Shown here piece by piece: positions 3 to 17,304 of a stretch of 64,000 bases of DNA (its first letter is position 1; every line of letters begins with the position of its first letter). The position numbers and the translations under genes were made by a program. The notes under the pieces are model-generated. The model saw only the letters and a list, made by a program, of their open reading frames with translations, had not been told where the DNA came from and did not search any database. Origin of the DNA: Pseudomonadota bacterium (GTDB taxonomy: Bacteria; Pseudomonadota; Alphaproteobacteria; Dongiales; Dongiaceae); the NCBI GenBank assembly GCA_021792365.1, contig JAJYUT010000009.1:124001-188000 (forward strand), read 5' to 3'.

Positions 3-1208
3 ACCTGGACCTTGTTCACCATTCCCTTCGGAGACGTCGTCTCACTGTCGTTCAACTGGACGTTTGTGATCGGCACGATCCTGATGCTGTTGGCCTTCGC
101 CATCCAGCATCGCGGGATCCTCGCGACTGCGGGCGTGCAGACGGTGGTCGGGTTGATAATCGTGATCACCCTGTTCGTCGTCGGCGTCGTGCCGTTCTTC
201 AACGGCAACTTCCATGCCGAGAACTTCACGCCCTTCGTGCCGCTCGCCGCGCCTTATGCGGCCGAGCCCGGTGCGTGGAACATCGCCGGCTGGACCTTGG
301 TGCTGGGCGGCATGTTCATCGCGGCCTGGTCCACCTACGGCTTCGAGACCGCGATCTGCTATACGCGCGAGTTCAAGAATCCGGAGCGGGATACCTTCAA
401 GGCGATCTTCTATTCGGGCCTGTTGTGCCTCGCCTTGTTCATCCTGGTGCCGATCACCTTCCAGGGCTATCTCGGCCTCGACGGCATGCTCGCCACCAAC
501 ATCGTGGATGGCACCGGCATCGCGCACGCCATGGGCGCGATGGTGGCGGGCGGCAGCCAGATCATCACGATGCTGTTCGTGATCCTGATGATCGCCGCGT
601 TGATCCTCATCATCGTCACGGCGATGGCCGGCTCGTCTCGCACGCTCTATCAAGGCTCGATCGACGGATGGCTGCCGCGCTATCTCTCGCGCGTCAACCA
701 CAACGGTGCGCCCACCGCGGCGATGTGGACCGACCTTGTCTTCAACCTGGTCCTGCTCTCCATCGCCTCGACCGATGCGACCGCCTACTACTTCATCCTG
801 GCGGTCAGCAATTGCGGCTACATCATCTTCAACTTCCTCAACCTGAATGCCGGCTGGATTCACCGCATCGATAGCGGCCACATCAAGCGTCCCTTCAAGG
901 CGCCGACCATCATCCTGGCGGCCGGCACGCTGCTGGCGTTCGTGAACGCGGTCTTCATGGGCGCGGGCGCGAAGGTGTGGAACCCCGACGCCCTGTGGTA
1001 CGGATTGGGCTTCGCGGCCGTCATCCTCCCGGTGTTCTGGTTCCGGCACTACATCCAGGACAAGGGCCAGTTCCCGCCGCAGATGATGGCGGACCTTGGT
1101 CTCAAGGGCGGCGATCTCGGCGAGCGCAAGGCCGGCGTCCTGCCCTATCTGGTGCTCGCCGCCGGTGTCGCGGTGGTGTTGATCTCAAACTGGTTCTTCA
1201 CCTTCTAA
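3..1208 (+). CDS. APC-family amino acid permease, C-terminal part (cut by left edge)
   Basis: The reading frame is open from the first complete codon of the window, so the true start lies upstream; the TTG at 12 is internal. About 400 residues are visible, with roughly eight hydrophobic segments separated by short loops. The block around FETAICYTREFKNPERDT, with its charged cytoplasmic loop, and the following LALFILVPITFQGYLG helix are typical of the APC (amino acid-polyamine-organocation) superfamily, which imports amino acids or amines by cation symport or exchange in the inner membrane. The substrate cannot be read from the sequence. The gene ends at a strong terminator and is not in an operon with the next gene. 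Confidence 0.85.
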   Translation, partial: TWTLFTIPFGDVVSLSFNWTFVIGTILMLLAFAIQHRGILATAGVQTVVGLIIVITLFVVGVVPFFNGNFHAENFTPFVPLAAPYAAEPGAWNIAGWTLVLGGMFIAAWSTYGFETAICYTREFKNPERDTFKAIFYSGLLCLALFILVPITFQGYLGLDGMLATNIVDGTGIAHAMGAMVAGGSQIITMLFVILMIAALILIIVTAMAGSSRTLYQGSIDGWLPRYLSRVNHNGAPTAAMWTDLVFNLVLLSIASTDATAYYFILAVSNCGYIIFNFLNLNAGWIHRIDSGHIKRPFKAPTIILAAGTLLAFVNAVFMGAGAKVWNPDALWYGLGFAAVILPVFWFRHYIQDKGQFPPQMMADLGLKGGDLGERKAGVLPYLVLAAGVAVVLISNWFFTF

Positions 1209-1377: not shown

Positions 1378-4143
1378 GTGCTCACTCGTATCTGGATGGC
1401 TGTGACCGCAGCGATCGCCATCGTCATCGCGACGATGGCCGCGCTGTGCACGCTCCAGTATGAACAGGTTCTGTCGCAACTGGTCCGCCAGCGGCTCGGC
1501 GTCACAGTCGAAGCAGCGGCCGGCCCGTTCCGTTCGGTTGTCGAACTCGGCCTGCCGGCGTCTATGGTGCGCAATAGCGTGGACTTGCTGTCCAGAGCGC
1601 GTGAAAGCGATCCGGCGATCAGCGAGGTTCGATTGTTCAACCCCTCGGGAATCGTCGTCGCATCGACGCGAGAGGGCGAAGCCAAACCGATGCGGCCGGA
1701 CGTGCTGCGCGCCCAAGGGGAGACGCCTGCCGAGCGCTGGAGCCTGGAACTCGACGACGTGCTGATCAGCGGCATATCGATCCGGAACGACGCCCATGCG
1801 AATGTCGCAGGCATCGCCGCCTATTACCCGATCAGCGAACTGACAAAGCCGGCCCGACAGGTAGCCATCGAGATCTCGCTCGTTGGAGCCGGCCTTTTCG
1901 TTCTGTTCTCGACCCTGGCGGTGCCGGCATTGCGATTGCGGCTCAGAGGCGTCCGTGCCGCGCTGGCCCAGCTCGATGGCGTCGCGGCGCGCCTGCGCGA
2001 AGGCCGAGGGTCGGGCGAGGCTGTCGAGCGCCGTCGACTTGGGCTGCTCGAAGAGGATTTCGACCTGCTGACGAGTGGTCTCGATGAGGCTGCGCGGTGC
2101 TACGAAGCTGGCCTCGGCCTGCTGCAGGAGGCGCCGGGCAAGACCGCGTGGACCCGCTCCGGCCGCCGCGTGCTGATCGCAATACCGGAAACGCGTCTTG
2201 CGCGTCGGTTCGCCCGCCGGCTCGCGCCTCTTATCGCGCTTCTTGTCGTTGCGGCGATGCTAATGCTGGGAATTTTCTCATATCTGCGCATCGAGCAATC
2301 GCTGACGCCGGAATTTGAGCGGCGACACGAATTGATCGGCTCGATCGCGCAGGCGGCGATCGCCAGGACGCTGGAGGCCGGCGTTCCGCTCGACGGCCTC
2401 GTCGGAGCGGGCGAGTATTTCGAGCGGCTGCTGGAGGATTTCCCGGAAGTCTCGTATTTCGCGATCACGACCGACCGGCCGCTGGTTGAAGTGGGCGCGC
2501 ACATCGGTGGAAACGCCTCGGTCCTGCCCATAACCGCCGCAGGCGGCAAGACCGCGTCCATTGTAACCGAGAGCAATCCGCAATATCTCGGCGAGCAGTT
2601 CCGCACCGTGGCGCTCGATCTTGCCGTGATCGTGATAGTGGCCGTGCTGTTCTCGTTCGAGCTGGTTGTCCTGGTGATGGGTGGGTCCGTGACCGGCCCG
2701 TTCGATCGCCTTCAGCACCTGGTCGACCTGCAGGCGGCGGGCGACTTCACGAAGCGGCTGAGCAGACGCGGCCGCGGCGTGATCGATCAGATCGGCGCCA
2801 TCCTGTCGGCGCGGGCCGTGGAGCTCAACGCGAGGCTTGCTGCCCGTACCGCGCCGGCGCAAGCTGAGAGCGACTTCCCGAAAATTCACCTCACTGGCCG
2901 ACCCCCCGACGTGATGCGATTCTGCAGTGTCGGCGATGTCCGCCTCGCGCTGTTCCTCTTCGCGGCCGCCGATCAACTGCCGCTTTCATTCTTTTCGCTC
3001 TTCGCGCGCGACGTCGAAAATCCGTTCTCCTGGATTGACCAGGGCGTGGCAAGCAGCCTGCCGCTGGCGGCGTATCTCCTCGCTGCCTTGTTCGGCGCCG
3101 GAGCCGCAAGACCGCTCTCCGGCCGGTTCGGCCATCGCGGACAATATCTTGCGGCAGCGGTGGTGACGGTCCTTGCCAATATCGGATTGAGCCTTGCGGG
3201 GAACCTGGTCGAGGTCGTCGCTTATTCTGCGCTCAACGGCATCGGCTTTGCCGTCGCCTCGCTAGCCTGCCAGGACTACGTGATCGACCGTCTGCCCAAG
3301 GAGGAGCGGTCGCGATCGATCGGCTTCGTCTCGGGTGCCCTGTTCGCCGGCATCTTCGCCGGCACGGCGCTTGGCGGTGTCATGGCCGACCGGATCGGGC
3401 AACGCCCGGTCTTTGTCGTTGCGGCGGCCCTGGCCTTGGCTTCCGCCCTGCTGATCCTCTGGCTGATGCCCATCGGCGACCGGCCCGGCAAGGACGATCC
3501 GATCGAGCCGATGGAGACGTTCTCGCTCAATCTCGTCGCGCCGCTCGGCTCGTTCGGATTTGCGGCGCTGGCGCTGGGCATCGTAGTTCCACAGATCGTC
3601 GCCGACCAGGTGTTCGTCTCTTATCTCATTGCGCTGGCGCTCGATGCGCTACAGGCCTCGATCGCCGATATTGCCCGACTGATGATGATCTATTTCCTGG
3701 CGGTGATCATAGCCGGCTACGTGGTGGCGAAGCTTCCTCCGTCAATGGCGGCACCGGCGCCCTTGGTGCTCGCCGCTTCGCTGATCTCGGGCGTGGCGCT
3801 CCTCACGCCGGTTTTTTGGCCGACGCCGGCCGGCTACTTTCTTGCGGCCGTGGGGGCAGGCTTCGGACACGGGTTGTCTCGCGGCCCGGTCGCCGATCTG
3901 GTCGTGCGGTTCGCCGAAGGGCCTCTGGCGCATCTGGGAACGAGCTCGGTTCTGGGCGCGTCGCGCGTGCTCGAGCGCGGCAGCAGCGTCGCCGGCCTTC
4001 TAGTGATCGGCGCACTTACGGGGATCGTCGGCTATGCAGGGGCAACCGCCGCAATTGCCGCCATGCTGCTCGGCGGAGCGGCGCTGTTCGCGCTCTCCCT
4101 GGCAGCACCATTTCATCATGGGATCGCAAAGCAAGGAGATTAG
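1378..4143 (+). CDS. Sensor-HAMP-MFS fusion transporter
   Basis: A 921-residue membrane protein with a GTG start. In order: membrane segment 1-26; extracytoplasmic region about 27-160; membrane segment about 163-188; cytoplasmic, charged and probably coiled segment about 190-275; membrane segment about 281-303; second extracytoplasmic region about 304-408; membrane segment about 411-438; HAMP-like linker about 439-490; then from about 515 to the end a full set of some 12 MFS helices, including the loop motif GGVMADRIGQRP at the half-way point. The sensor half looks like two membrane-anchored Cache-type modules as found in receptors and cyclases, here placed in front of a transporter. MFS proteins are normally about 400 residues, so about 500 extra residues precede the transporter. 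It is followed after 3 bases by a periplasmic binding protein gene. I infer ligand-gated or ligand-reporting transport. Domain limits are by eye. Confidence 0.8.
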   Translation: MLTRIWMAVTAAIAIVIATMAALCTLQYEQVLSQLVRQRLGVTVEAAAGPFRSVVELGLPASMVRNSVDLLSRARESDPAISEVRLFNPSGIVVASTREGEAKPMRPDVLRAQGETPAERWSLELDDVLISGISIRNDAHANVAGIAAYYPISELTKPARQVAIEISLVGAGLFVLFSTLAVPALRLRLRGVRAALAQLDGVAARLREGRGSGEAVERRRLGLLEEDFDLLTSGLDEAARCYEAGLGLLQEAPGKTAWTRSGRRVLIAIPETRLARRFARRLAPLIALLVVAAMLMLGIFSYLRIEQSLTPEFERRHELIGSIAQAAIARTLEAGVPLDGLVGAGEYFERLLEDFPEVSYFAITTDRPLVEVGAHIGGNASVLPITAAGGKTASIVTESNPQYLGEQFRTVALDLAVIVIVAVLFSFELVVLVMGGSVTGPFDRLQHLVDLQAAGDFTKRLSRRGRGVIDQIGAILSARAVELNARLAARTAPAQAESDFPKIHLTGRPPDVMRFCSVGDVRLALFLFAAADQLPLSFFSLFARDVENPFSWIDQGVASSLPLAAYLLAALFGAGAARPLSGRFGHRGQYLAAAVVTVLANIGLSLAGNLVEVVAYSALNGIGFAVASLACQDYVIDRLPKEERSRSIGFVSGALFAGIFAGTALGGVMADRIGQRPVFVVAAALALASALLILWLMPIGDRPGKDDPIEPMETFSLNLVAPLGSFGFAALALGIVVPQIVADQVFVSYLIALALDALQASIADIARLMMIYFLAVIIAGYVVAKLPPSMAAPAPLVLAASLISGVALLTPVFWPTPAGYFLAAVGAGFGHGLSRGPVADLVVRFAEGPLAHLGTSSVLGASRVLERGSSVAGLLVIGALTGIVGYAGATAAIAAMLLGGAALFALSLAAPFHHGIAKQGD

Positions 4144-4146
4144 GGC

Positions 4147-5154
4147 ATGAGAAATCCGGGAAAGCTTGCCGCCCTCGCAATCGTGCTTGCCGCATTCGCG
4201 CTCGCCGTCGCGCCGGCGACCGCCGCGCCCAAGCGCGTGATGATGGTGGTCTGGATCGGCTGCGAGGATGTGTGCCGCGGCGTGCAGGACTACTTCAAGG
4301 AGAACGGCATCGACGTCGACTTCTTGGTTCGGGATGCGGCGCAGGACAGCTCGAAGTTTCCCGGATTCGTCCAGGAGGCGCGGGCGATGAAGGCCGATCT
4401 CGTTCTCACCTGGGGCACCAAGACCACGCTCGGGATCGTGGGAACGCTTGCCGACCGCGACGATCCCACCATGCTGAACGATATCCCGGTCGTTTTCACC
4501 GTCGTTGCCGATCCGGTAGGCACCAAGATCATCGAATCCTACGACAAGACCGGCCGGCCCAACGTGACGGGAACGCGCAACCGCGTGCCCGAGGAGGTGA
4601 ACATCAAGAGCATCCGGCGATACCTGCCCGGCTTTAATCATCTGGGCGTGTTGTACGATCCAAGCGAGGTGAATTCGGTCGCCAAGGTCGAGGAGCTCAA
4701 CGGCCTCGCAGGCCCGCTGGGCTTCACGCTCGACGTCCTGCCGCTCGGGCTCGATGCGAGCGGCGCGCCGACAATCGATTCGATCAAGCCGCAGATGGAC
4801 AAGTTCAAGGCCGCGGGAGCGCAGTTCATCTATCTCGGCTCGAGCACGTTCCTTGAGAAGCAGCAGGATGCCTTCACCGGCGCCGCTGTCGACAGCGGGT
4901 TGCCGGTCCTTGTGTCCTACGAGCACATGGTGACCGAGTCCCAGGCGCTGATGTCGGTCGCCGCGCGCGACTACGACGTCGGCAAGCTCGCCGGACAGCA
5001 GGCCGCGAAAATCCTCGTCGACGGGCGGAAGCCGGGAGATCTGCCGGTGTTGCCGATGGAGGAGTTCGCCTATCTGGTCAACATGAAAGTTGCCAAGAAA
5101 CTCTCGCTCTATCCCCCCGTCGAGTTCCTGCAGTTCGTGGAAACGGTCGAGTGA
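4147..5154 (+). CDS. ABC_sub_bind (TrpX-like) periplasmic binding protein
   Basis: 335 residues with a clear Sec signal peptide (hydrophobic stretch LAALAIVLAAFALAVAPATAAP, cleavage after about residue 27). The rest matches the two-lobed ABC_sub_bind/COG2984 family: VLTWGTKTTLGIVGTLAD, IPVVFTVVADPVGTKII, and the C-terminal block with GQQAAKILVDGRKPGDLPV. Family members bind tryptophan, tyrosine or other small molecules for ABC importers. The start has AAGGAG at 4132-4138 and lies 3 bases after the sensor-MFS stop, so the two are surely co-transcribed. No ABC permease or ATPase gene is nearby; an ABC_sub_bind protein paired with an MFS sensor protein is unusual and suggests it presents ligand to the sensor domain. 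Confidence 0.9.
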   Translation: MRNPGKLAALAIVLAAFALAVAPATAAPKRVMMVVWIGCEDVCRGVQDYFKENGIDVDFLVRDAAQDSSKFPGFVQEARAMKADLVLTWGTKTTLGIVGTLADRDDPTMLNDIPVVFTVVADPVGTKIIESYDKTGRPNVTGTRNRVPEEVNIKSIRRYLPGFNHLGVLYDPSEVNSVAKVEELNGLAGPLGFTLDVLPLGLDASGAPTIDSIKPQMDKFKAAGAQFIYLGSSTFLEKQQDAFTGAAVDSGLPVLVSYEHMVTESQALMSVAARDYDVGKLAGQQAAKILVDGRKPGDLPVLPMEEFAYLVNMKVAKKLSLYPPVEFLQFVETVE

Positions 5155-5300: not shown

Positions 5301-7484
5301 ATGAGGGCTCCTCGAATCGGGGCTGCGATCTTGCGCAAGGAAGCGATACCGGTCGACGAGTCAGGGAACGCGCACGTGGTCGAAGATAGGGCGGCGGCGC
5401 TCGCCGAACTGGCGCGGCGCACGGCGATGCTGGACGCCATCTCCTATGGCGCGGCCCAGATCATCGGCGCGGAGGACTGGCGCGCCGGCATCCAGGAGAT
5501 GCTCAACCGCCTCGGCCGCGCAACCGAGGTCAGCCGCGTCACCCTGTTCGAGATCCACCAGGGCGCCGACGGCCAGCCGGTCGAGACCTGCCGCTATGAC
5601 TGGGCGGAGCCCGGCCTGCCCCGGCTCAGCGGCGATCCGCGCTATCGCGACATGCCGCTGGTGGAGCACGAAGGCGGCCAGCTCGGCGACTGGCTGGCGG
5701 CGCGGCGCCGCGGCGAGATCGTGCAGGCGACGCTGAAGGACGTGACCGGCGAGACCCGCAGGACCTTCCTCGAGCACGGCACGCAGAGCTTCATCTCCGT
5801 CCCCATCATGCTGCGTTCCGGCGTGTGGGGCTTCCTCGGCCTCGACGATTGCCGCAGCGAGCGCGTCTGGCACACGCTGGAGATCGACGTGCTGAGGACC
5901 GCCGCCGCTCTCGTCGCCGGCGCGCTGGAGCGCGCCGCCTCCGATGAGGCGCTGCGCAACAGCCGCGAGCGCTACGCCCTGGCGGCGCGCGGCGCCAATG
6001 ACGGGCTGTGGGACTGGGACCTGACGGCCAACCGCACCTATTTCTCGCCGCGCGTCTACGAGATCCTCGCTCTGCCCGAAGGCACCCTCGCCTCGCCCAA
6101 GGCCTTCGCCGGGCAGCTGATGCAGCGCGACGCAGTGGTCTGGCGCAAATACCTCGCCCACTGCATCATCGAGCGCCGGCGCACCTTCGAATTCGAGGCG
6201 CGGCTGCGCTCCAGCACAGCCCGGCCGGAACAGGACCCCGAACCGCACCTCCGGCCGTATCCCGGGCCGCACCCCGAAGCGGGCCAGGCGGCCTCGCGCT
6301 GGGTGGTGATCCGCGGCCTCATCGTCTACGAGGAGCACGGCGCCGCGGCCCGCCTGGTCGGCTCGCTGCGCGACATCACCGACCGCAAGCGCATGGAGCT
6401 CGACCTGCGCGCCAGCGAGACCCGCGTGCGCGCCATCCTCGACACCGCGTTCGATGCCATCATCACCATCGGCGAGGCCGGCCGCATCGTGGAGTTCAAC
6501 AACGCCGCGACGCGCATCTTCGGCCATGCCCGCGCCGACGCGATCGGCCAGCCGCTGGCCGAGCTGATCATTCCGCCGATCTACCGCGCCGCGCACAAGG
6601 AGGGCCTGCGGCGCTATCTGGAGACCGGCCAGCATTCGGTGCTCAACCGCCTGATCGAGGTCGAGGCGCTGCGCGCCGACGGCACGCACATCCCGGTCGA
6701 GCTCTCGATCACCGAGGTGCCGGTCTCGGAGGGGCGCCTGTTCACCGCCATGCTGCGCGACATCTCGGAGCGCAAGCGCTTCGAGGCGCAGCTCGCCACT
6801 GCCGAGCGCCAGCGCGCGCAACTGACGCGCCACTTCTCCCCCAACATGGTGGAGGAGCTCATGCAGGCCGGCGGGCGCATCGGCGTCGCGCGCACCCAGC
6901 CGATGGCGGTGCTGTTCTCCGACCTCTACGACTACACCGAGATGAGCGCGACCATGTCGGGCGAGCAGGTGATCGAGCTGCTGCGCGCGTTCCACGCCAT
7001 CGTCGAGGACGCCGTCTTCAACCACGGCGGCACCCTCGACAAGTATATCGGCGACGGCCTGATGGCGACCTTCGGCACGCCGACGCCCGGCCCGATGGAC
7101 GCCACCAACGCGATCGCCGCGACGCGCCAGATGCTGCGCGAGCTCGCGCGCTGGAACCAGCGCCGCGAGGCCGCCGGCGAGCGCCGCATCCGCGTCGGCG
7201 TCGGCCTCCATTTCGGCCAGGCCACCCTGGGCGACGTGGGGACGGAGCAGCGCTTCGAGCTCACCGTCGTCGGCGACACCGTCAACATCGCCAGCCGCAT
7301 CGAGCAGATGAGCCGCCTCGTCCGCATGGCGGTGGTGGCGAGCGACGACATCATCCGCCAGGCCGTCGCCGAATGCGGCCAGGAGGCTGCCGAGGGCTTC
7401 CGCGACCTCGGCGAGCACCGGGTCCGCGGCCATCCCGCCCTGATCCGCCTCTGGGGCCTCAGCGCGGAATCGCAACGTCCATAG
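5301..7484 (+). CDS. Class III adenylate cyclase with GAF and two PAS domains
   Basis: 727 residues, soluble. An N-terminal GAF domain spans about 40-215 (FISVPIMLRSGVWGFLGLDD), a first PAS about 222-365 (ANDGLWDWDLTANRTYFSPRV, ending RDITDRKRMEL), a second PAS about 370-490 (ILDTAFDAIITIGEAGRIV, ending RDISERKRFE), a short linker, and a cyclase catalytic domain about 530-720. The two metal-binding aspartates are in LFSDLYDY and KYIGDGLMATFG, and the purine/transition-state block is TVVGDTVNIASRIE, which fits ATP as substrate. It would make cAMP in response to a cytoplasmic signal sensed by GAF/PAS; the ligand is unknown. The PAS-1 loop has an inserted Pro-rich stretch. It lies 146 bases after the sensor-MFS operon but behind a terminator. 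Confidence 0.92.
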   Translation: MRAPRIGAAILRKEAIPVDESGNAHVVEDRAAALAELARRTAMLDAISYGAAQIIGAEDWRAGIQEMLNRLGRATEVSRVTLFEIHQGADGQPVETCRYDWAEPGLPRLSGDPRYRDMPLVEHEGGQLGDWLAARRRGEIVQATLKDVTGETRRTFLEHGTQSFISVPIMLRSGVWGFLGLDDCRSERVWHTLEIDVLRTAAALVAGALERAASDEALRNSRERYALAARGANDGLWDWDLTANRTYFSPRVYEILALPEGTLASPKAFAGQLMQRDAVVWRKYLAHCIIERRRTFEFEARLRSSTARPEQDPEPHLRPYPGPHPEAGQAASRWVVIRGLIVYEEHGAAARLVGSLRDITDRKRMELDLRASETRVRAILDTAFDAIITIGEAGRIVEFNNAATRIFGHARADAIGQPLAELIIPPIYRAAHKEGLRRYLETGQHSVLNRLIEVEALRADGTHIPVELSITEVPVSEGRLFTAMLRDISERKRFEAQLATAERQRAQLTRHFSPNMVEELMQAGGRIGVARTQPMAVLFSDLYDYTEMSATMSGEQVIELLRAFHAIVEDAVFNHGGTLDKYIGDGLMATFGTPTPGPMDATNAIAATRQMLRELARWNQRREAAGERRIRVGVGLHFGQATLGDVGTEQRFELTVVGDTVNIASRIEQMSRLVRMAVVASDDIIRQAVAECGQEAAEGFRDLGEHRVRGHPALIRLWGLSAESQRP

Positions 7485-8151: not shown

Positions 8152-9264
8152 ATGGTCGAAGCAAGGACGGCGGTGCGGGGAACCGCGTGGGCGATCTACA
8201 CCATCCTGGTGGGCGAGATCCTGTTCCTCATCAGCCCGCTGGCGCCGCTGTTCTATTCCTTCTACGGGCCGGTGCTCCGCTTCCTCGACAGCCATCGCGA
8301 GACCGCCTGGCTGACGCAGTTCTTCCTGCCGCACATCTCGGTCACGGGGAACCCGCTGCTCGACCTGCTGCCGCCGCTCGGCTGGGTCCTGCTGGTGCTG
8401 GGGACGGTCTTTTTCCTGGCGAGCGCCGTGCCGCTCTACTGGTCGATGGCGACGCGCCGCAGCCAGGTCGTCGGCGGGCTCTACAACATCATCCGCCACC
8501 CGCAATATGTCGGGCTCGCCATCATGGGCTTCGGCGTGCTGCTGGTCTGGCCGCGCTTCCTGGTTCTGGTCAGCCTGCTCGTCATGCTTGGCCTCTACCG
8601 CGTGTTCGCGGGCACCGAGGAATCGCAATGCCTCGCGCGCTTCGGCGACAGCTATCGCGCCTACATGGCGCGGACCGGCCGGTTCCTGCCGCGCGCCTGG
8701 GCCGACCGCCTGCCGCGCATCCTGCCGGAGGAAGGGCCCGGCCGGATCGCCGCGGGAATCGCGGTGTTCCTGGCCGTGCTCGGCGGCTCGCTCGCCGCCG
8801 CCTTCGTGCTGCGGGGTTACGCGCTCTCGCAGGTGGCCGCCCTCTATCACGAGCAGGAGGCCATCCTGTCGCCCTCCGGGATGGCGGCGGGGGACCTGGA
8901 ATCCGCCTATCGCACCGCCGTCGCGGATCCCGCCGTCCGCGCCGCGCTCGGCGCGGCCCTGCCCGGCCAGCGCCTCGTCTATGTCGTCCCGCAGGACTGG
9001 ACGCTGCTGCCCGCTGCGGCGCGGCCCGAGGCGAACGGCATCCCGCTGCGCAAGGACGCCTTCGACCGGACCCGCTACAAGCTGCTGTTCGCGCGCGCGC
9101 GCAGCCACGACCCCGAGGCCGCCGGTCAGGAGATCGTGAAGGATGCCTACGGCCTCGACCCCATCATCTTCGCCCATGTCGACATCGCCGCGCGCAAGGT
9201 GACCGCCATAGAGCAGCCCCCCGCCCACGTCCGCTGGGCCGACATCCCGATCCCCATGTTCTGA
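8152..9264 (+). CDS. ICMT/PEMT-like membrane methyltransferase with extra C-terminal domain
   Basis: 370 residues from ATG at 8152, preceded by GGAGCAGCGGA. Residues about 1-190 hold several membrane helices and the signature of isoprenylcysteine/phospholipid methyltransferases: GGLYNIIRHPQYVGLAIMGF (SAM site) and the later TEESQCLARFGDSYRAYMARTGRFLP. These enzymes methylate lipid-linked or hydrophobic substrates at the membrane using SAM. After another membrane helix (about 200-225) there is a 140-residue, mostly hydrophilic tail that the family normally lacks; I do not recognise it. The gene converges on the DddP-like gene. Confidence 0.75.
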   Translation: MVEARTAVRGTAWAIYTILVGEILFLISPLAPLFYSFYGPVLRFLDSHRETAWLTQFFLPHISVTGNPLLDLLPPLGWVLLVLGTVFFLASAVPLYWSMATRRSQVVGGLYNIIRHPQYVGLAIMGFGVLLVWPRFLVLVSLLVMLGLYRVFAGTEESQCLARFGDSYRAYMARTGRFLPRAWADRLPRILPEEGPGRIAAGIAVFLAVLGGSLAAAFVLRGYALSQVAALYHEQEAILSPSGMAAGDLESAYRTAVADPAVRAALGAALPGQRLVYVVPQDWTLLPAAARPEANGIPLRKDAFDRTRYKLLFARARSHDPEAAGQEIVKDAYGLDPIIFAHVDIAARKVTAIEQPPAHVRWADIPIPMF

Positions 9265-9329: not shown

Positions 9330-10529
9330 TCAATACTCCGGCCGCAGCCCCAGCGGCGCGGTCGACAGCAGCTCGTATCCGGTGTCCGTCACCAGCACCT
9401 GCTGCTCCAGCTTGACGCATTCCTTGCCGCCCACCGCGCCGATCAGCGCCTCGACGCAGATGGTCATGCCGGCCTCCAGCACGCCCTCGAAGCCCCAGCG
9501 CTGCCAGTCCTGCGGATAGACCGCGAAGGGATACTCATCGCACAGCCCGACGCCGTGCATGATGCAGGAATAGCGCCGTGCCACCAAATCCTCGGGCAGG
9601 GGAAAGCTCTTCTCGGTGAACGCGCGCAACGACAGCCCCGCTTTCACCAAAGCGAGGTTGTGGTGCAGGTTGTCCAGCGCCACGCCGTAGAGCCGCCGCT
9701 GCTCGTCGGTCGGCCGCACGTCGCCCGCGACCCAGCTGCGGCTGATATCGGCGCAATAGCCGTTCGGGCCGATGAGGTCGGTGTCGAACGCGACGATGTC
9801 GCCGTTCTGGATCACGCGGTCGGAGCATTCCTGGAACCAGGGATTGGTGCGCTCGCCGGAGGTCAGCAGCCGGCACTCGATCCACTCCCCGCCCTTGGCG
9901 ATGTTGGTGGCGTGAAGATGCGACCACAGCTCGTTCTCGGTCATGCCCGGCGTAAGCGCGCGCCACATCGCCGCGATCCCTGCCTCGCAGGCGGCGATCG
10001 CCTCCTTCATCGCCACGATCTCATCCGCGTTCTTGATGCAGCGCGCCCATTCCATCACCTCCTCGCCGTCGGTGACAGTGACGCCTTCGCGCTCCAGCGC
10101 GTGGAGCGCGGGCGGGTCCAGCTTGTCGATTGCGAGGCGCGGGTTGCCGCCGCCATGCTGCCGCACCAGGTCCGCGACTTCCTTCGCCCAGTTGCGGTGA
10201 TACTCGGCATGGCGCGGGCCGTTGGTGAAGTAGGTGTGCGGAAAGGCGGTGCGCGTCTCCGCGATCAGGTCGTCGCCCGCGCTCAGGTGCCGCGCGCAGC
10301 CGTAGTCGAACAGGATGACGGGGCCCTCCGCCGGCACGTAGACGTAGCGGCATTTGTTGTGCAGCGCCCAGACCTGCATGTTGGGGATGTCGGTGGCGTG
10401 CCGGATGTTCGGCGGATCGAACAGCAATGCCCCGCCATAATCGCGCCGGATGAGCTCCCGCCGGATGCGCCCCAGACGATAACGCCGGAGACTGGCTCGG
10501 TCGACCTGGCTCTGGTGATAGGCTGTCAT
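9330..10529 (-). CDS. dddP: M24-fold enzyme, probable DMSP lyase DddP
   Basis: 399 residues of the creatinase/aminopeptidase P fold. The metal and active-site residues are present with a distinctive arrangement: D249 and D251 (FDTDLIGP), D261 (CADISRSW), Y320 and H325 (YSCIMHGVG), D331, E360 (CVEA) and E375 (KLEQQ). With a constant offset of 46 these match residues I recall for the characterised DMSP lyase DddP of Ruegeria (D295, D297, D307, Y366, H371, D377, E406, E421), with no insertion or deletion between them. DddP cleaves dimethylsulfoniopropionate to dimethyl sulfide and acrylate in the cytoplasm. The N-terminus is about 46 residues shorter than that protein. A related M24 hydrolase acting on another substrate remains possible. 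It is divergent from a binding protein gene. Confidence 0.7.
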   Translation of the reverse strand: MTAYHQSQVDRASLRRYRLGRIRRELIRRDYGGALLFDPPNIRHATDIPNMQVWALHNKCRYVYVPAEGPVILFDYGCARHLSAGDDLIAETRTAFPHTYFTNGPRHAEYHRNWAKEVADLVRQHGGGNPRLAIDKLDPPALHALEREGVTVTDGEEVMEWARCIKNADEIVAMKEAIAACEAGIAAMWRALTPGMTENELWSHLHATNIAKGGEWIECRLLTSGERTNPWFQECSDRVIQNGDIVAFDTDLIGPNGYCADISRSWVAGDVRPTDEQRRLYGVALDNLHHNLALVKAGLSLRAFTEKSFPLPEDLVARRYSCIMHGVGLCDEYPFAVYPQDWQRWGFEGVLEAGMTICVEALIGAVGGKECVKLEQQVLVTDTGYELLSTAPLGLRPEY

Positions 10530-10550
10530 GCAGGTTTCTCCCCTCGCCCA

Positions 10551-10590
10551 ACGTTAAGCATCCCGACATCAGGCGCCCCGACGTTAAGCA
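10551..10590. promoter_or_regulatory. Direct repeat upstream of the DddP-like gene
   Basis: ACGTTAAGCA occurs twice, at 10551-10560 and 10581-10590, exactly 30 bp apart (about three helical turns), 20-60 bases upstream of the DddP-like start codon. This is the layout of tandem operator half-sites bound on one helix face; the regulator is unknown. Confidence 0.45.
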
Positions 10591-10924
10591 CTGCCGCGCC
10601 GCTTGCCACGTGAGAAATCCGCAATCGCCTTAGGACGTTGCCGGGCAGGTCGTCCGCACGCCCCCGCCAATCGGGAAAGCGGCGGCGCAGGCGGGCGTCG
10701 ATGGACCGCCCGGCCCGGATTTGTCGCTGTCGTTTAATCGGGTGTCGTGATTGACGTCTTGCCCCTCCGCCGATAACGTAACAATGATCAACTAAAGTGC
10801 CGCGCCGCAAGGAAATGCGCGGACCAGACACGTCGCCGGAACCCGGTCGCCTCCGCGATCCGTTTCGGGCCTCGGACGGCTGAGTTCGGCGAACACGCCA
10901 ACTATAAACAGGGAGGGTATGCAC

Positions 10925-12622
10925 ATGCGTTCCGGTTCGGGCGGCAAGGACCGCCATCATCCAGCCATTCCGCGCCTCGTCGATGCGCTCGAGCAGCGCA
11001 AGCTCGATCGGCGCGAGTTCCTGCGCACGGCCACGCTGCTCGGCCTCGGCGCGCCGGCGGCGTATGGTATTGCCGGCAAGATCCTGGGCGAGCCCGCCAT
11101 CAAGGCGGCCCAGGCCCAGACGCCCGTGAAAGGCGGCATCCTGCGCGTCGGCATGCGCATCCCGGCGCTCGACAGCCCGCACATCTTCTCCTGGGTCTAT
11201 GACTCGAACGTCGTGCGCCAGACCAACGACTATCTCTCGCGCACCCAGTCGGACGGCGTCACCGTTCCCTACCTGCTCGAGAGCTGGGCGCCGAGCGAGG
11301 ACCTCAAGACCTGGACGCTCAACCTGCGCAAGGGCGTGAAATGGTCCAATGGCGAGGACCTGGTCGCGGATCACGTCATCTGGAACCTCCAGCGCTGGTT
11401 CGATCCGAATGTCGGCTCGTCGACCCTGGGCCTGTTCAAGGGCTTCCTGCTGAAGGATGTCGATACCGGCGAGAAGAACGAGGACGGCTCGCCGAAGATG
11501 ACGACCGACCTCTGGGACGCCAACGCGATCGAGAAGGTCGACGACCACACCATCCGGCTCAACGGCTCTGTGGCGCAGCTCGCGGTTCCGGAGAACCTGT
11601 TCCACTACCCGGCCTTCATCCTGCATCCGAAAGACGAAGGGAAGTACGGCGTCGGCGCAATCGGCACCGGGGCCTATGAGCCGGCCGAGATCGAGGTCGG
11701 CAAGAAGGTCGTGCTGAAGCGGCGCGGCTCCTACTGGAAGGAGGGCGGCTACCTCGACGAGATCCATTTCGTCGATCTGGGCGACGATCCGGCCACCAAG
11801 CTGGCGGCCCTCGCCTCCAAGCAGGTAGACGGCCTCTACGATGCCGACATCAAGATCTACGAGAGCATCAAGAAGATCCCCGGTCTCGAGTTGCACCAGA
11901 TCACGACGGCGCAGACCGCGTGCGCCCGTATGAAGATGGGGCATAAGCCGTTCGATGATCCGCGCGTGCGCAAGGCGCTCCGCCTAGCGACCGACAGCGC
12001 CAGCATCCTGAAGATCGCCTATCGCGATCTCGGCGCGCCGGGCGATCACCATCACTGCTGCCCGGTTCATCCGGACTATGCGGAAGTGCCGGTGATGAAG
12101 CGCGACATCGAGGCCGCGAAGAAGCTGCTGGCCGAGGCCGGCCATCCGAACGGCATCGAGGCCGAGCTGCATTGCAAGAAGGACCCGGACTGGGAGCCGA
12201 CCGCCTGCCAGGCGCTGATCGAGCAGTGGGCCGAGGCCGGCATCAATGTGAAGCTCAACGTCATGCCGGGCGCCCAGTACTGGGACGTCTGGACCAAGGT
12301 GCCGTTCGGCTTCACCACCTGGACCCATCGTCCGCTCGCGATCATGGTCCTCGGCCTTGCCTATCGCACCGGCGTGCCGTGGAACGAGAGCGACTACTCC
12401 AACCCCAAGTTCGACGAGCTGCTGACCAAGGCGGAAGGCATCATCGACCTCGAGGAGCGCAAGAAGGTGGTCCGCGAGCTCGAGCTCATCATGCAGGAGG
12501 ACGGCACCATCGTCCAACCGCTGTGGCGTGCCAGCTACCAGCCCTTCACCAACAAGCTGAAGGGCTACAAGCCGCACCCGACGGAGTACTACTTCTTCGA
12601 GGATGTGTGGATGGAAGCGTAA
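10925..12622 (+). CDS. Family-5 (peptide/opine type) ABC substrate-binding protein, Tat-exported
   Basis: 565 residues. The N-terminus carries a Tat signal: DRREFLRTATLLGLGAPAAYG. The mature part is a SBP_bac_5 protein (LLESWAPSEDLKTWTLNLRKGVKWSNGE; C-terminal EEDGTIVQPLWRASYQPF-type region), the family that binds oligopeptides, nickel, opines and other cationic solutes in the periplasm. ATG 10925 is preferred to ATG 10919 because GGAGG at 10912-10916 is 8 bases from the former and only 2 from the latter. No permease or ATPase gene adjoins it, so its importer must be elsewhere. It ends at a strong terminator and is divergent from the DddP-like gene. Confidence 0.92.
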   Translation: MRSGSGGKDRHHPAIPRLVDALEQRKLDRREFLRTATLLGLGAPAAYGIAGKILGEPAIKAAQAQTPVKGGILRVGMRIPALDSPHIFSWVYDSNVVRQTNDYLSRTQSDGVTVPYLLESWAPSEDLKTWTLNLRKGVKWSNGEDLVADHVIWNLQRWFDPNVGSSTLGLFKGFLLKDVDTGEKNEDGSPKMTTDLWDANAIEKVDDHTIRLNGSVAQLAVPENLFHYPAFILHPKDEGKYGVGAIGTGAYEPAEIEVGKKVVLKRRGSYWKEGGYLDEIHFVDLGDDPATKLAALASKQVDGLYDADIKIYESIKKIPGLELHQITTAQTACARMKMGHKPFDDPRVRKALRLATDSASILKIAYRDLGAPGDHHHCCPVHPDYAEVPVMKRDIEAAKKLLAEAGHPNGIEAELHCKKDPDWEPTACQALIEQWAEAGINVKLNVMPGAQYWDVWTKVPFGFTTWTHRPLAIMVLGLAYRTGVPWNESDYSNPKFDELLTKAEGIIDLEERKKVVRELELIMQEDGTIVQPLWRASYQPFTNKLKGYKPHPTEYYFFEDVWMEA

Positions 12623-13960: not shown

Positions 13961-15061
13961 CTATCGCAGCCAATCCTCTTCCACGATTCCCGCGCGCGCC
14001 ATCGCTTGCCGCACGCGGTCGTGGAAGTAGCGCACGCCGATTTCGTGCTTGGGACTGAGAAGGCCGCGCTGGAATATGCCGGCTTGGAGATTGGCCTGCG
14101 AGCGCTCGCAGATGCCGAAATCCTCGCGCACGATATCGCAATTGGTCTCGATCGTGCGCTCGTTCTGCTCCTGCACCGCCTCGCTCACGTCGCGGAAGAA
14201 GAAGTTGTAGACGAGGCGCGTGCGCTTCTCGTCCACCGGCACGATGCGCGAGCAGTTCATGCCGCCGGGATAGACCGAGAGCGTGAAGTTCGGCCAGCCC
14301 CACAGCCACAAACCGCCATAGATCGAGCCGTTCCTCTGCGGCGCGGTCATGATGACCAGCGCGTCGCCATGGGTCGTCTCGAATTTCGAGAAATCGATCA
14401 CCGCATGGAAGCTCGGATGGATGCCGGGGATGTGGTAGCCCTCGACGAAATTGTCGGTGTAGTTCTTCCAGTTGCAGTTCATCTCGAACTCGGCCTGGCG
14501 CACCTTGGTGAAGGTCTCGATCGGGTAGTCCTTCACCGTCTCCGGCAGGCTGCCGAGCGAGTCAACCAGCGCGGGCGCCGCCGCATCGAAATTCACGAAC
14601 ACCAATCCGCGCCAGGTCTCGACCCGGATCGGCATCAGCCCGTTCTCCTCCTTGCGGAACCATGCGGCCTCGCCGAAATCCGGGGCGCGGCGCAGGTTGC
14701 CGGAGGTGTCGAACACCCAGCCGTGATAGCGGCAGCGCAGCAGGTCGCAATGGCCCGCGCCGTCGTCCAGCAATTGCGAGGCGCGGTGCGGGCATACATT
14801 GTGGAAGCCGCGCAGCGCACCGTCGCGGTCGCGGATCACGAAGAAGCGATAGCCCGCAACCTCCGCCGCGACGTAATCGCCGGGATTCGGCAGATCGCTC
14901 GCCGGCCCGACCAGTTGCCACTCGCGCGCGAAGATCTGCCGCCGCTCGGCTTGCCAGATCGCGCGTTCCCAGTACCACCGCGCCGGCAGGCCGTAGACGC
15001 CGCGCGCCGCCGCCTCCCCCGCTCTGTCTTGCTGAGGACTGTCCTGCTGAAGAATCGCCAT
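13961..15061 (-). CDS. Rieske non-haem iron oxygenase, alpha subunit
   Basis: About 366 residues from ATG 15061; a GTG at 15070 is also possible. The Rieske [2Fe-2S] ligands are in CPHRAS and CRYHGW, near residues 90-115. The mononuclear iron site is in NYTDNFVEGYHIPGIHPSFH, giving two histidines. The overall form (aromatic-ring-hydroxylating dioxygenase alpha-like) includes choline, carnitine and glycine-betaine oxygenases, which open with a similar iron-site segment. No reductase gene is adjacent, so the electron donor must be encoded elsewhere. With the DddP-like enzyme 3 kb away this could act on an onium compound, but that is inference. Confidence 0.88.
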   Translation of the reverse strand: MAILQQDSPQQDRAGEAAARGVYGLPARWYWERAIWQAERRQIFAREWQLVGPASDLPNPGDYVAAEVAGYRFFVIRDRDGALRGFHNVCPHRASQLLDDGAGHCDLLRCRYHGWVFDTSGNLRRAPDFGEAAWFRKEENGLMPIRVETWRGLVFVNFDAAAPALVDSLGSLPETVKDYPIETFTKVRQAEFEMNCNWKNYTDNFVEGYHIPGIHPSFHAVIDFSKFETTHGDALVIMTAPQRNGSIYGGLWLWGWPNFTLSVYPGGMNCSRIVPVDEKRTRLVYNFFFRDVSEAVQEQNERTIETNCDIVREDFGICERSQANLQAGIFQRGLLSPKHEIGVRYFHDRVRQAMARAGIVEEDWLR

Positions 15062-15158
15062 CACACCCACCGCGCCCTCACGGCCAGTCTGCCGTGCGGC
15101 GCGATGGTGCGGGAGCCGGCGGGAAAACTCAAGCAGCCGAAAGTTTCAGGAATCCGGT

Positions 15159-16005: not shown

Positions 16006-17304
16006 ATGGCGGATGAGGCACCGGCGCTGAGCGGCCTTGCCGTGGGGCGGGCTGGTGCCCGCGCGGCGATGCCGAAATCGGCGGTCTCCGGCGCGACCGG
16101 GTTCGCGGGCCTGTGCGGATTGTCGGGCGCACTCGCCATCGTGGCGAACACCGGAATGGACAGCTCCCTGGGCGCCCTCCTGTGCCTCGCAGGTGTGGCC
16201 GCGCCCATGATCTTGTGGACGACCTTGGTCGAGCGCGCCTATCGCAGCCCCGATGTCGAAATGGACTTTACGAGGCCGCGCCCGCTCGCCGACACGCTCG
16301 CGACCACCGGCGTCAAGCTCGTCGGGTTGGGCGCGACCGGGCTTGTCATCGCCGCCTTCTACGGTCTGGTCCGGCACTACGACGCGCCACGCTACAACTT
16401 CTATTTCGACCTGCTCCGCGATTGGGCGATTCCGCTGATCCTGCTGTCGGTCCTCTATGTCTTCCTGGTCGACCGCTACATGATGAACCCGCGCGACAGC
16501 CTGTGGCACGCCGGGTCCTGGCTTCTCCGCTTCGGGCGCGCCGACTTGGAGATGGTGAAGGAGCATGCGCGCTGCTGGGGCATCAAGGCGTTCTTCATCC
16601 CCTTCATGTTCGGGATCCTGCGCGGGCCGCTCGAGCGGTTGCGCGGAGATGTCACCTTCGATCCGGCCAGCCTCGCCTCGTTCAGCCTCAATCTGGCCCT
16701 GATCTTCGAGATCTACTTCGCCACCATCGGCTACATCCTTACAATCCGGCCGCTCGATTCCCATATCCGCTCGGCCAATCCCTTCGTGGCGGGCTGGGTG
16801 GCCGCCCTTCTCTGCTATCCGCCGTTCCTGCTGGCCTATCGGGACGGCCCGCTCGACTACCAGTCCTCCTCGCCCGGCTGGGTGAAAGCGCTCGGCGAGA
16901 ACGAGGCGGTAATGGTGGTCTGGCTTGCGCTGCTGATCGCGACCTCGGTGGTGTGGGTCTGGTCGACCATGATCTTCGGCCTGCGCTGGTCGAACCTCAC
17001 CCATCGCGGGATCATCACCAACGGCCCCTACCGCTATTTCAAGCACCCGGACTATCTCGCGAAGAACATCCGCTGGTGGCTGCTCTACGTGCCGTTCCTC
17101 TCCGCCTCCGCCTTGGATGCGGTCCAGAACTGCGCGCTCCTGCTGGTGATGAACCTGATCTACTACTGGCGCGCCAAGACCGAAGAGCGTCACCTGTCCG
17201 AGGACCCGCGCTACGTGGCCTATTCCGCCTGGATCGCGGAGCATGGCGTAATCCCGAGGACCCGGCGCTGGCTGGCGTCCGGAGCAAAATCGCTACGGAC
17301 GTGA
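16006..17304 (+). CDS. ICMT-like membrane methyltransferase, multi-span
   Basis: 432 residues with about ten predicted membrane helices. The C-terminal part carries the isoprenylcysteine carboxyl methyltransferase-like site [20 protein letters not shown] and the trailing [19 protein letters not shown]. The N-terminal two thirds is an additional polytopic domain I do not recognise. A SAM-dependent methylation of a membrane-embedded substrate is likely. This is the second such enzyme in 8 kb. It is divergent from msrA. Confidence 0.7.

Follow-up and report, generated by a model that had tools for sequence, protein, structure and literature searches.

A DddP-like enzyme of the M24 fold in a conserved methylated-amine gene neighbourhood of a Dongiaceae genus

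We report a DddP-like protein encoded in a 64,000-nucleotide stretch of an alphaproteobacterial genome (the window; GenBank contig JAJYUT010000009.1). On balance, we lean towards reading its gene as that of a DddP-type onium lyase, with either DMSP or a trimethylammonium analogue as the natural substrate. The protein is a variant of the known DddP kind, and its conserved amine setting was unexpected. The original prediction of a DddP-like enzyme able to release DMS from DMSP was correct at the level of residues and right in part as an interpretation. Its DddP-like identity is upheld by the DddP-type active site, by the predicted fold and by a clade that unites it with known DddPs and leaves out seven other M24 proteins of the genome, whereas the protein belongs to a group distinct from canonical DddP, scores 164 bits below the curated DddP cut-off, and has a conserved neighbourhood that indicates methylated amines at least as much as DMSP.

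Results and discussion

Active-site residues

The gene is an uninterrupted reading frame from ATG to stop, and Pfam assigns its product to Peptidase_M24 together with a weak Creatinase_N match. Three features define the locus.

9330..10529, minus strand: DddP-like M24-fold metalloenzyme, 399 aa (ATG-to-stop reading frame, alignments, profiles and predicted structure)
9747..9785, minus strand: metal-ligand stretch D249-x-D251 ... D261 (DTDLIGPNGYCAD), aligned to RlDddP D295, D297 and D307
9537..9572, minus strand: Y320, metal ligand H325 and proposed catalytic base D331, aligned to Y366, H371 and D377 (roles as described in PMC4108388)

The observation that had singled out this gene is real: D249, D251, D261, Y320, H325, D331, E360 and E375 are all present in that order, and alignment places each at a constant offset of +46 to RlDddP and RdDddP (D295, D297, D307, Y366, H371, D377, E406 and E421). 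Near the N-terminus the pairwise alignment gives +41 instead, with W54 of the window protein matching W95 of RlDddP, because RlDddP has five extra residues in between. The six metal ligands (three Asp, two Glu and one His, namely D249, D251, D261, H325, E360 and E375) are complete, W54 and Y320 correspond to the conserved Trp and Tyr of DddP, and every catalytic residue, Asp and Tyr included, is kept in the alignment.

For RdDddP, Hehemann et al. describe six metal ligands, among them Asp297, a residue that methionine aminopeptidases do not conserve, and suggest that Asp377 is the base, with Tyr366 as an alternative (PMC4108388). According to a review, five of the six DddP ligands are common to M24 peptidases, Phe and Asp take the place of the two M24 histidines in DddP (after Wang et al. 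2015), and, in a passage that gives no residue numbers, one Trp and one Tyr hold the sulfonium sulfur (PMC5395565). In an alignment with seven further M24 proteins encoded by this genome, the histidine columns read F232 and D331 in the window protein, and the Asp-Thr-Asp motif occurs in none of the seven. This motif sets the protein apart from ordinary M24 members, as had been proposed, and the phrases FDTDLIGP and CADISRSW both occur in the 399-residue product.

Sequence and fold comparison

A phmmer search against solved proteins ranked RlDddP first (E 4.1e-102), with the RlDddP entries (4RZY and two mutants) at 7e-101 or better and RdDddP (4B28) at 2e-97; the next M24 protein, a prolidase, followed at 2.9e-14. 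By this comparison, the likeness to DddP is far beyond chance. An AlphaFold2 model of the monomer, built from 55 aligned sequences of the family set, reached a mean pLDDT of 93.7 and a pTM of 0.91, and superposed on RlDddP and RdDddP with Z 48.8-49.0 and an rmsd of 1.8 A over 398 residues. Prolidases, creatinases and the ectoine hydrolase DoeA trailed at Z <= 36.2, and the Foldseek ranking likewise put RlDddP and RdDddP far ahead. The predicted monomer has the DddP fold.

With M24B peptidases (prolidase, aminopeptidase P), creatinase and DoeA the protein shares the pita-bread fold but differs from them in its DTD motif and its His-to-Phe and His-to-Asp exchanges. An ordinary M24 aminopeptidase or prolidase is ruled out by the phmmer gap, the replacement of both histidines and the fold scores, DoeA by 41.7 bits on its NCBIfam model against a cut-off of 575, and creatinase by a fold Z of only 34-35. 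Creatinase is also not known to have a metal site.

A hydrolytic role can also be imagined, in which an amidase or imidase of the prolidase/creatinase kind would act on, for example, imported N-methyl amino acid conjugates and hand its product to an enzyme resembling dimethylglycine dehydrogenase (DMGDH). The M24 fold, the complete metal site and an operon of the sister genus that unites an SBP_bac_5 transporter with a DMGDH-like protein (see below) would all suit such a role. However, both peptidase histidines are replaced, the fold Z is 49 to DddP against at most 36 to prolidases and creatinases, and RlDddP was reported to be without Val-Pro activity (PMC5395565), and we regard this hydrolase as improbable.

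The solved DddPs (RlDddP 4RZY, 4S00 and 4S01; RdDddP 4B28) share with the window protein the fold, the six metal ligands, the Tyr, Asp and Trp, and both histidine exchanges. They differ from it in that the window protein lacks the N-terminal loop-helix appendix (residues 10-50 of RdDddP), stays below the cut-off of the NCBIfam DddP equivalog model NF043017 (435.9 bits against a curated 600), falls in a separate clade and has amine genes as neighbours. The NF043017 match starts only at profile position 51, because the appendix is missing. Identity is 43.8% to RlDddP, 52.4% to L163 (a long Oceanimonas-type DddP that passes the NF043017 cut-off and is itself 53.3% identical to RlDddP) and 52.4% to L174, a short-type protein.

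Placement in the DddP family

We placed the protein in a tree of 134 rows (153 distinct sequences minus 20 of the 23 Mesorhizobium rows, plus an RlDddP fragment), inferred by a quick method with SH-aLRT support only and without DddP2, HWgs001 or fungal DddPs. In it the canonical Roseobacter and long-Oceanimonas DddPs form a starred group that excludes the window protein, which sits elsewhere with its own genus and the sister genus G012, among short DddP-like proteins. A more careful tree of 32 rows separated the DddP family, window protein included, from the seven other M24 proteins of the same genome with support of 100/99, subject to a long-branch warning; members without D331 branch early in this tree, and Roseobacter-type DddPs are deeply nested. 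The protein does not cluster outright with a distinct M24 group, yet it groups apart from canonical DddP. Because it lies both under the model cut-off and outside the canonical clade, we name it DddP-like rather than file it as DddP.

The full set of nine residues (six metal ligands, Y320, D331 and W54) is kept in 111 of the 134 rows. Gly or Val replaces the catalytic D331 in 20 of the 134, with the three-Asp metal site intact, and across the family this metal site therefore goes with more than one function, a point that counts against the lyase reading. Judged by their residues, these proteins (L014, L036, L038, L040, L043, L115, L119, L123 and L160-L162 among them) probably catalyse another reaction; the window protein falls within the base-keeping majority.

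Short DddPs can be active. The DddP of the scallop symbiont HWgs001 is short by its numbering, with the first Asp at position 263; in E. coli it yields DMS, and its nearest relative is O. doudoroffii DddP2 at 55% identity (PMC10989825). Short Oceanimonas-group proteins (L169, L170 and L174), which are possibly this DddP2, have a short N-terminus like that of the window protein, and BCCT and Rieske genes adjoin them. L174 matches the window protein's active site except for M in place of F232, and belongs to another clade within the short group; the first metal Asp stands at 265 in L174, 263 in HWgs001 and 249 in the window protein. The nuo/atp neighbours reported for HWgs001 were not recognised beside L175 and L176, where homocysteine methyltransferase-like and other genes occur. 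DddD-like frames of about 839 aa with two CoA-transferase domains were seen in three genomes (G407, G412 and G418).

Relatives of the protein are widespread. Every one of the 17 genomes in the window's order has a match with an E-value of 1e-60 or lower; several carry two to four copies, and no match exceeds the DddP cut-off. Of 385 genomes sampled evenly across the class, 78 match, 12 of them above it. Among the named relatives (the best 80 of 557) are Mesorhizobium, Roseibium, Kiloniella, Psychrobacter, Oceanimonas and some Bacillaceae; D331 is missing from all three Bacillaceae rows. The window's genome itself holds a second DddP-like gene (G000, C21:1053560-1054714; rows L013 and L184), 49% identical to the first, which keeps all metal ligands and D331 but has Phe for W54 and is followed by a transporter gene of the carboxylate, amino acid or amine type. 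Two or three DddP-like genes lie within a few kb at L230 and L235, and MttB-like and DMGDH-like genes are also present at L235.

Gene neighbourhood and the case for an amine substrate

Gene calls were made with a small custom codon-bias script. The features around the DddP-like gene are as follows.

3..1208, plus strand: C-terminal part of a trimethylamine-N-oxide (TMAO) permease whose gene starts upstream of the window (NF053774 615.5 bits, 401 aa)
5301..7484, plus strand: GAF/PAS adenylate or guanylate cyclase, syntenic in 4/4 genus members
10530..10918, no strand: intergenic region separating the divergent DddP-like and binding-protein genes, with blocks conserved in an alignment of four species
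10919..12622, plus strand: SBP_bac_5 (peptide/nickel-type) ABC substrate-binding protein, adjoining the DddP-like gene in 4/4 genus genomes
13961..15070, minus strand: Rieske oxygenase whose nearest solved relative is carnitine monooxygenase CntA (E 1e-41)

The order TMAO permease, cyclase, DddP-like gene (reversed) and SBP_bac_5 is kept in all four genus genomes, and full-length relatives of the permease (L177 and L178) score 823.5 and 838.7 on NF053774, where the cut-off is 690. The Rieske gene, which also gives a weak glycine-betaine monooxygenase match (125 of 670 bits), lies near the DddP-like gene in two of the four genus members. A repeat pattern tried on the intergenic region 10530..10918 found no match. 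Further upstream on the same contig, some 15-27 kb from the DddP-like gene, are genes for a trimethylamine monooxygenase (849.7 bits; cut-off 675), a TMAO demethylase (1228.2 bits; cut-off 1100) and proteins with Glu_synthase, GXGXG, glutamine-amidotransferase (GATase) and glutamine-synthetase (Gln-synt) domains, which we take to be the N-methylglutamate route.

The window contains other frames as well. A 921-aa frame at 1378-4143 has a C-terminal half matching MFS transporters and an N-terminal half resembling a membrane sensor, and an ABC_sub_bind protein at 4147-5154 adjoins it. Membrane proteins with isoprenylcysteine/phospholipid methyltransferase-like domains are encoded at 8152-9264 and 16006-17304, on either side of the DddP-like locus.

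In the sister genus G012, the DddP-like protein (70% identity) is encoded in an operon of the order SBP5-B-C-DF-DddP-like-DMGDH-like; besides the DddP-like gene it includes SBP_bac_5, a pair of permeases, a fused ATPase and a DMGDH-like gene, and the SBP_bac_5 protein of the window is 57% identical to its counterpart there. Counterparts of both permeases and of the ATPase (73, 72 and 65% identity) lie about 83 kb off in the window's genome, without a binding protein, and transporter and enzyme therefore look like one module that has since split. In two further lineages (L053 and L108) the same transporter set lies beside a DddP-like gene, and at L227 the binding protein alone does.

To survey this context more widely, we counted methylated-onium genes (MttB-like, MtgC-like corrinoid, betaine-homocysteine methyltransferase, DMGDH-like, TMADH-like, BCCT and Rieske) within 8-kb flanks. 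Such genes occur at all 23 Mesorhizobium loci, at 21 of the 56 named non-Mesorhizobium DddP-like loci and at 12 of the 29 unnamed ones. In arbitrary stretches the count is 2 of 20, and at other M24 loci of the window's genome it is 1 of 6. For the 33 of 85 non-Mesorhizobium loci against the 2 of 20 arbitrary stretches, Fisher's test gives p = 0.017, which we treat as a lead rather than a test because DddP loci served to seed the models and are related to one another. The DddP gene was called in 79 of the 80 named loci, some contigs end inside the flank, L045 and L185 are apparently one contig, and the thresholds were our own.

These observations would fit a lyase that releases trimethylamine from a 3-trimethylammonio-carboxylate; beta-alanine betaine, for example, would yield trimethylamine and acrylate, the former feeding the trimethylamine, TMAO and N-methylglutamate genes. 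The synteny with the TMAO permease throughout the genus, the presence on one contig of the monooxygenase, demethylase and N-methylglutamate-type genes, the CntA-like Rieske gene close by and the excess of methylated-amine genes at the 85 loci all speak for it. Against this, trimethylamine leaves less readily than DMS, the context models share the seeding and relatedness noted above, and the TMAO link was found in the window's genus only. To our knowledge, moreover, no trimethylamine-releasing betaine lyase of this kind is known, and the open-licence PMC literature yielded nothing pertinent on beta-alanine betaine lyases and no paper linking DddP with MttB, soil or betaine clusters. We hold a trimethylamine-releasing enzyme to be possible, though rather doubtful.

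The case for DMSP

The alternative within the same lyase reading is a dedicated DMSP lyase, for which DMSP would be the natural substrate and the DMS formed would be oxidised to DMSO by the nearby trimethylamine monooxygenase (Tmm). Every residue reported necessary in DddP is kept, the protein is about as near to the above-cut-off L163 as RlDddP is, and the short DddP of HWgs001 shows that a short form can be active (PMC10989825). Tmm is reported to oxidise DMS to DMSO and to co-occur with DMSP lyases (PMC8498191). On these grounds, DMSP cleavage with release of DMS by the candidate enzyme is plausible. However, the genome search returned no BCCT carrier and no DmdA above its cut-off, the gene neighbourhood suits amines, and known DddPs have a Km of 14-17 mM (PMC5395565), so that even for these DMSP says little about the physiological substrate. 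A dedicated DMSP lyase appears possible, if rather doubtful.

The same genome has 16 GcvT-like matches, many in frames 800-1050 aa long like those of dimethylglycine or sarcosine dehydrogenases, and it encodes four OpuAC-type binding proteins; by its sequence, the organism seems rich in N-demethylases. It also encodes an AcuI/YhdH at 453 bits, above the cut-off, as do 2 of 14 control genomes. This enzyme fits acrylate as the product from either substrate and is not specific.

Proposed mechanism

The onium lyase that we favour would be an M24 'pita-bread' enzyme that has lost the peptidase histidines and binds two metals through three Asp, two Glu and one His. We infer the metal and the chemistry from the residues described above. 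A small methylated onium acid would be bound at its carboxylate by the metal and at its onium head by W54 and Y320, and D331 would act as the base that removes a proton from the carbon adjacent to the carboxylate. The ensuing beta-elimination would expel the methylated head group and leave acrylate behind: DMSP would give DMS, and a nitrogen analogue, beta-alanine betaine for example, would give trimethylamine. The neighbouring SBP_bac_5 transporter may import the substrate, the head group may pass to the nearby trimethylamine-monooxygenase, TMAO-demethylase and N-methylglutamate genes, and acrylate may be handled by AcuI/YhdH.

Several observations weigh against this proposal. No operon joins the methylamine genes to the DddP-like gene, and other members of the order have DddP-like genes without methylamine genes nearby. 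The score below the NF043017 cut-off and the lack of a BCCT carrier or an above-cut-off DmdA in the genome count against a lyase as well.

Implications for the DddP family

A more far-reaching view is that short DddP-like proteins are in general onium-carboxylate lyases of methylated-amine metabolism, that the marine DMSP lyase is a branch derived from them, and that the beta-elimination by which DMSP yields DMS serves the enzyme described here to free trimethylamine from a 3-trimethylammonio acid, beta-alanine betaine for instance. In this full form the proposal is speculative, and we consider it unlikely.

The distinction matters since counts of DddP serve to estimate the DMSP-to-DMS capacity of sea and sediments, and a metagenome study counts Mesorhizobium-type sequences as dddP (PMC7039863). 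If the large short-form branch acts on nitrogen betaines, DddP-based counts would be too high; if it cleaves DMSP, DMS production would reach many bacteria beyond the marine groups. The origin of DddP may lie in betaine metabolism, not in peptide digestion.
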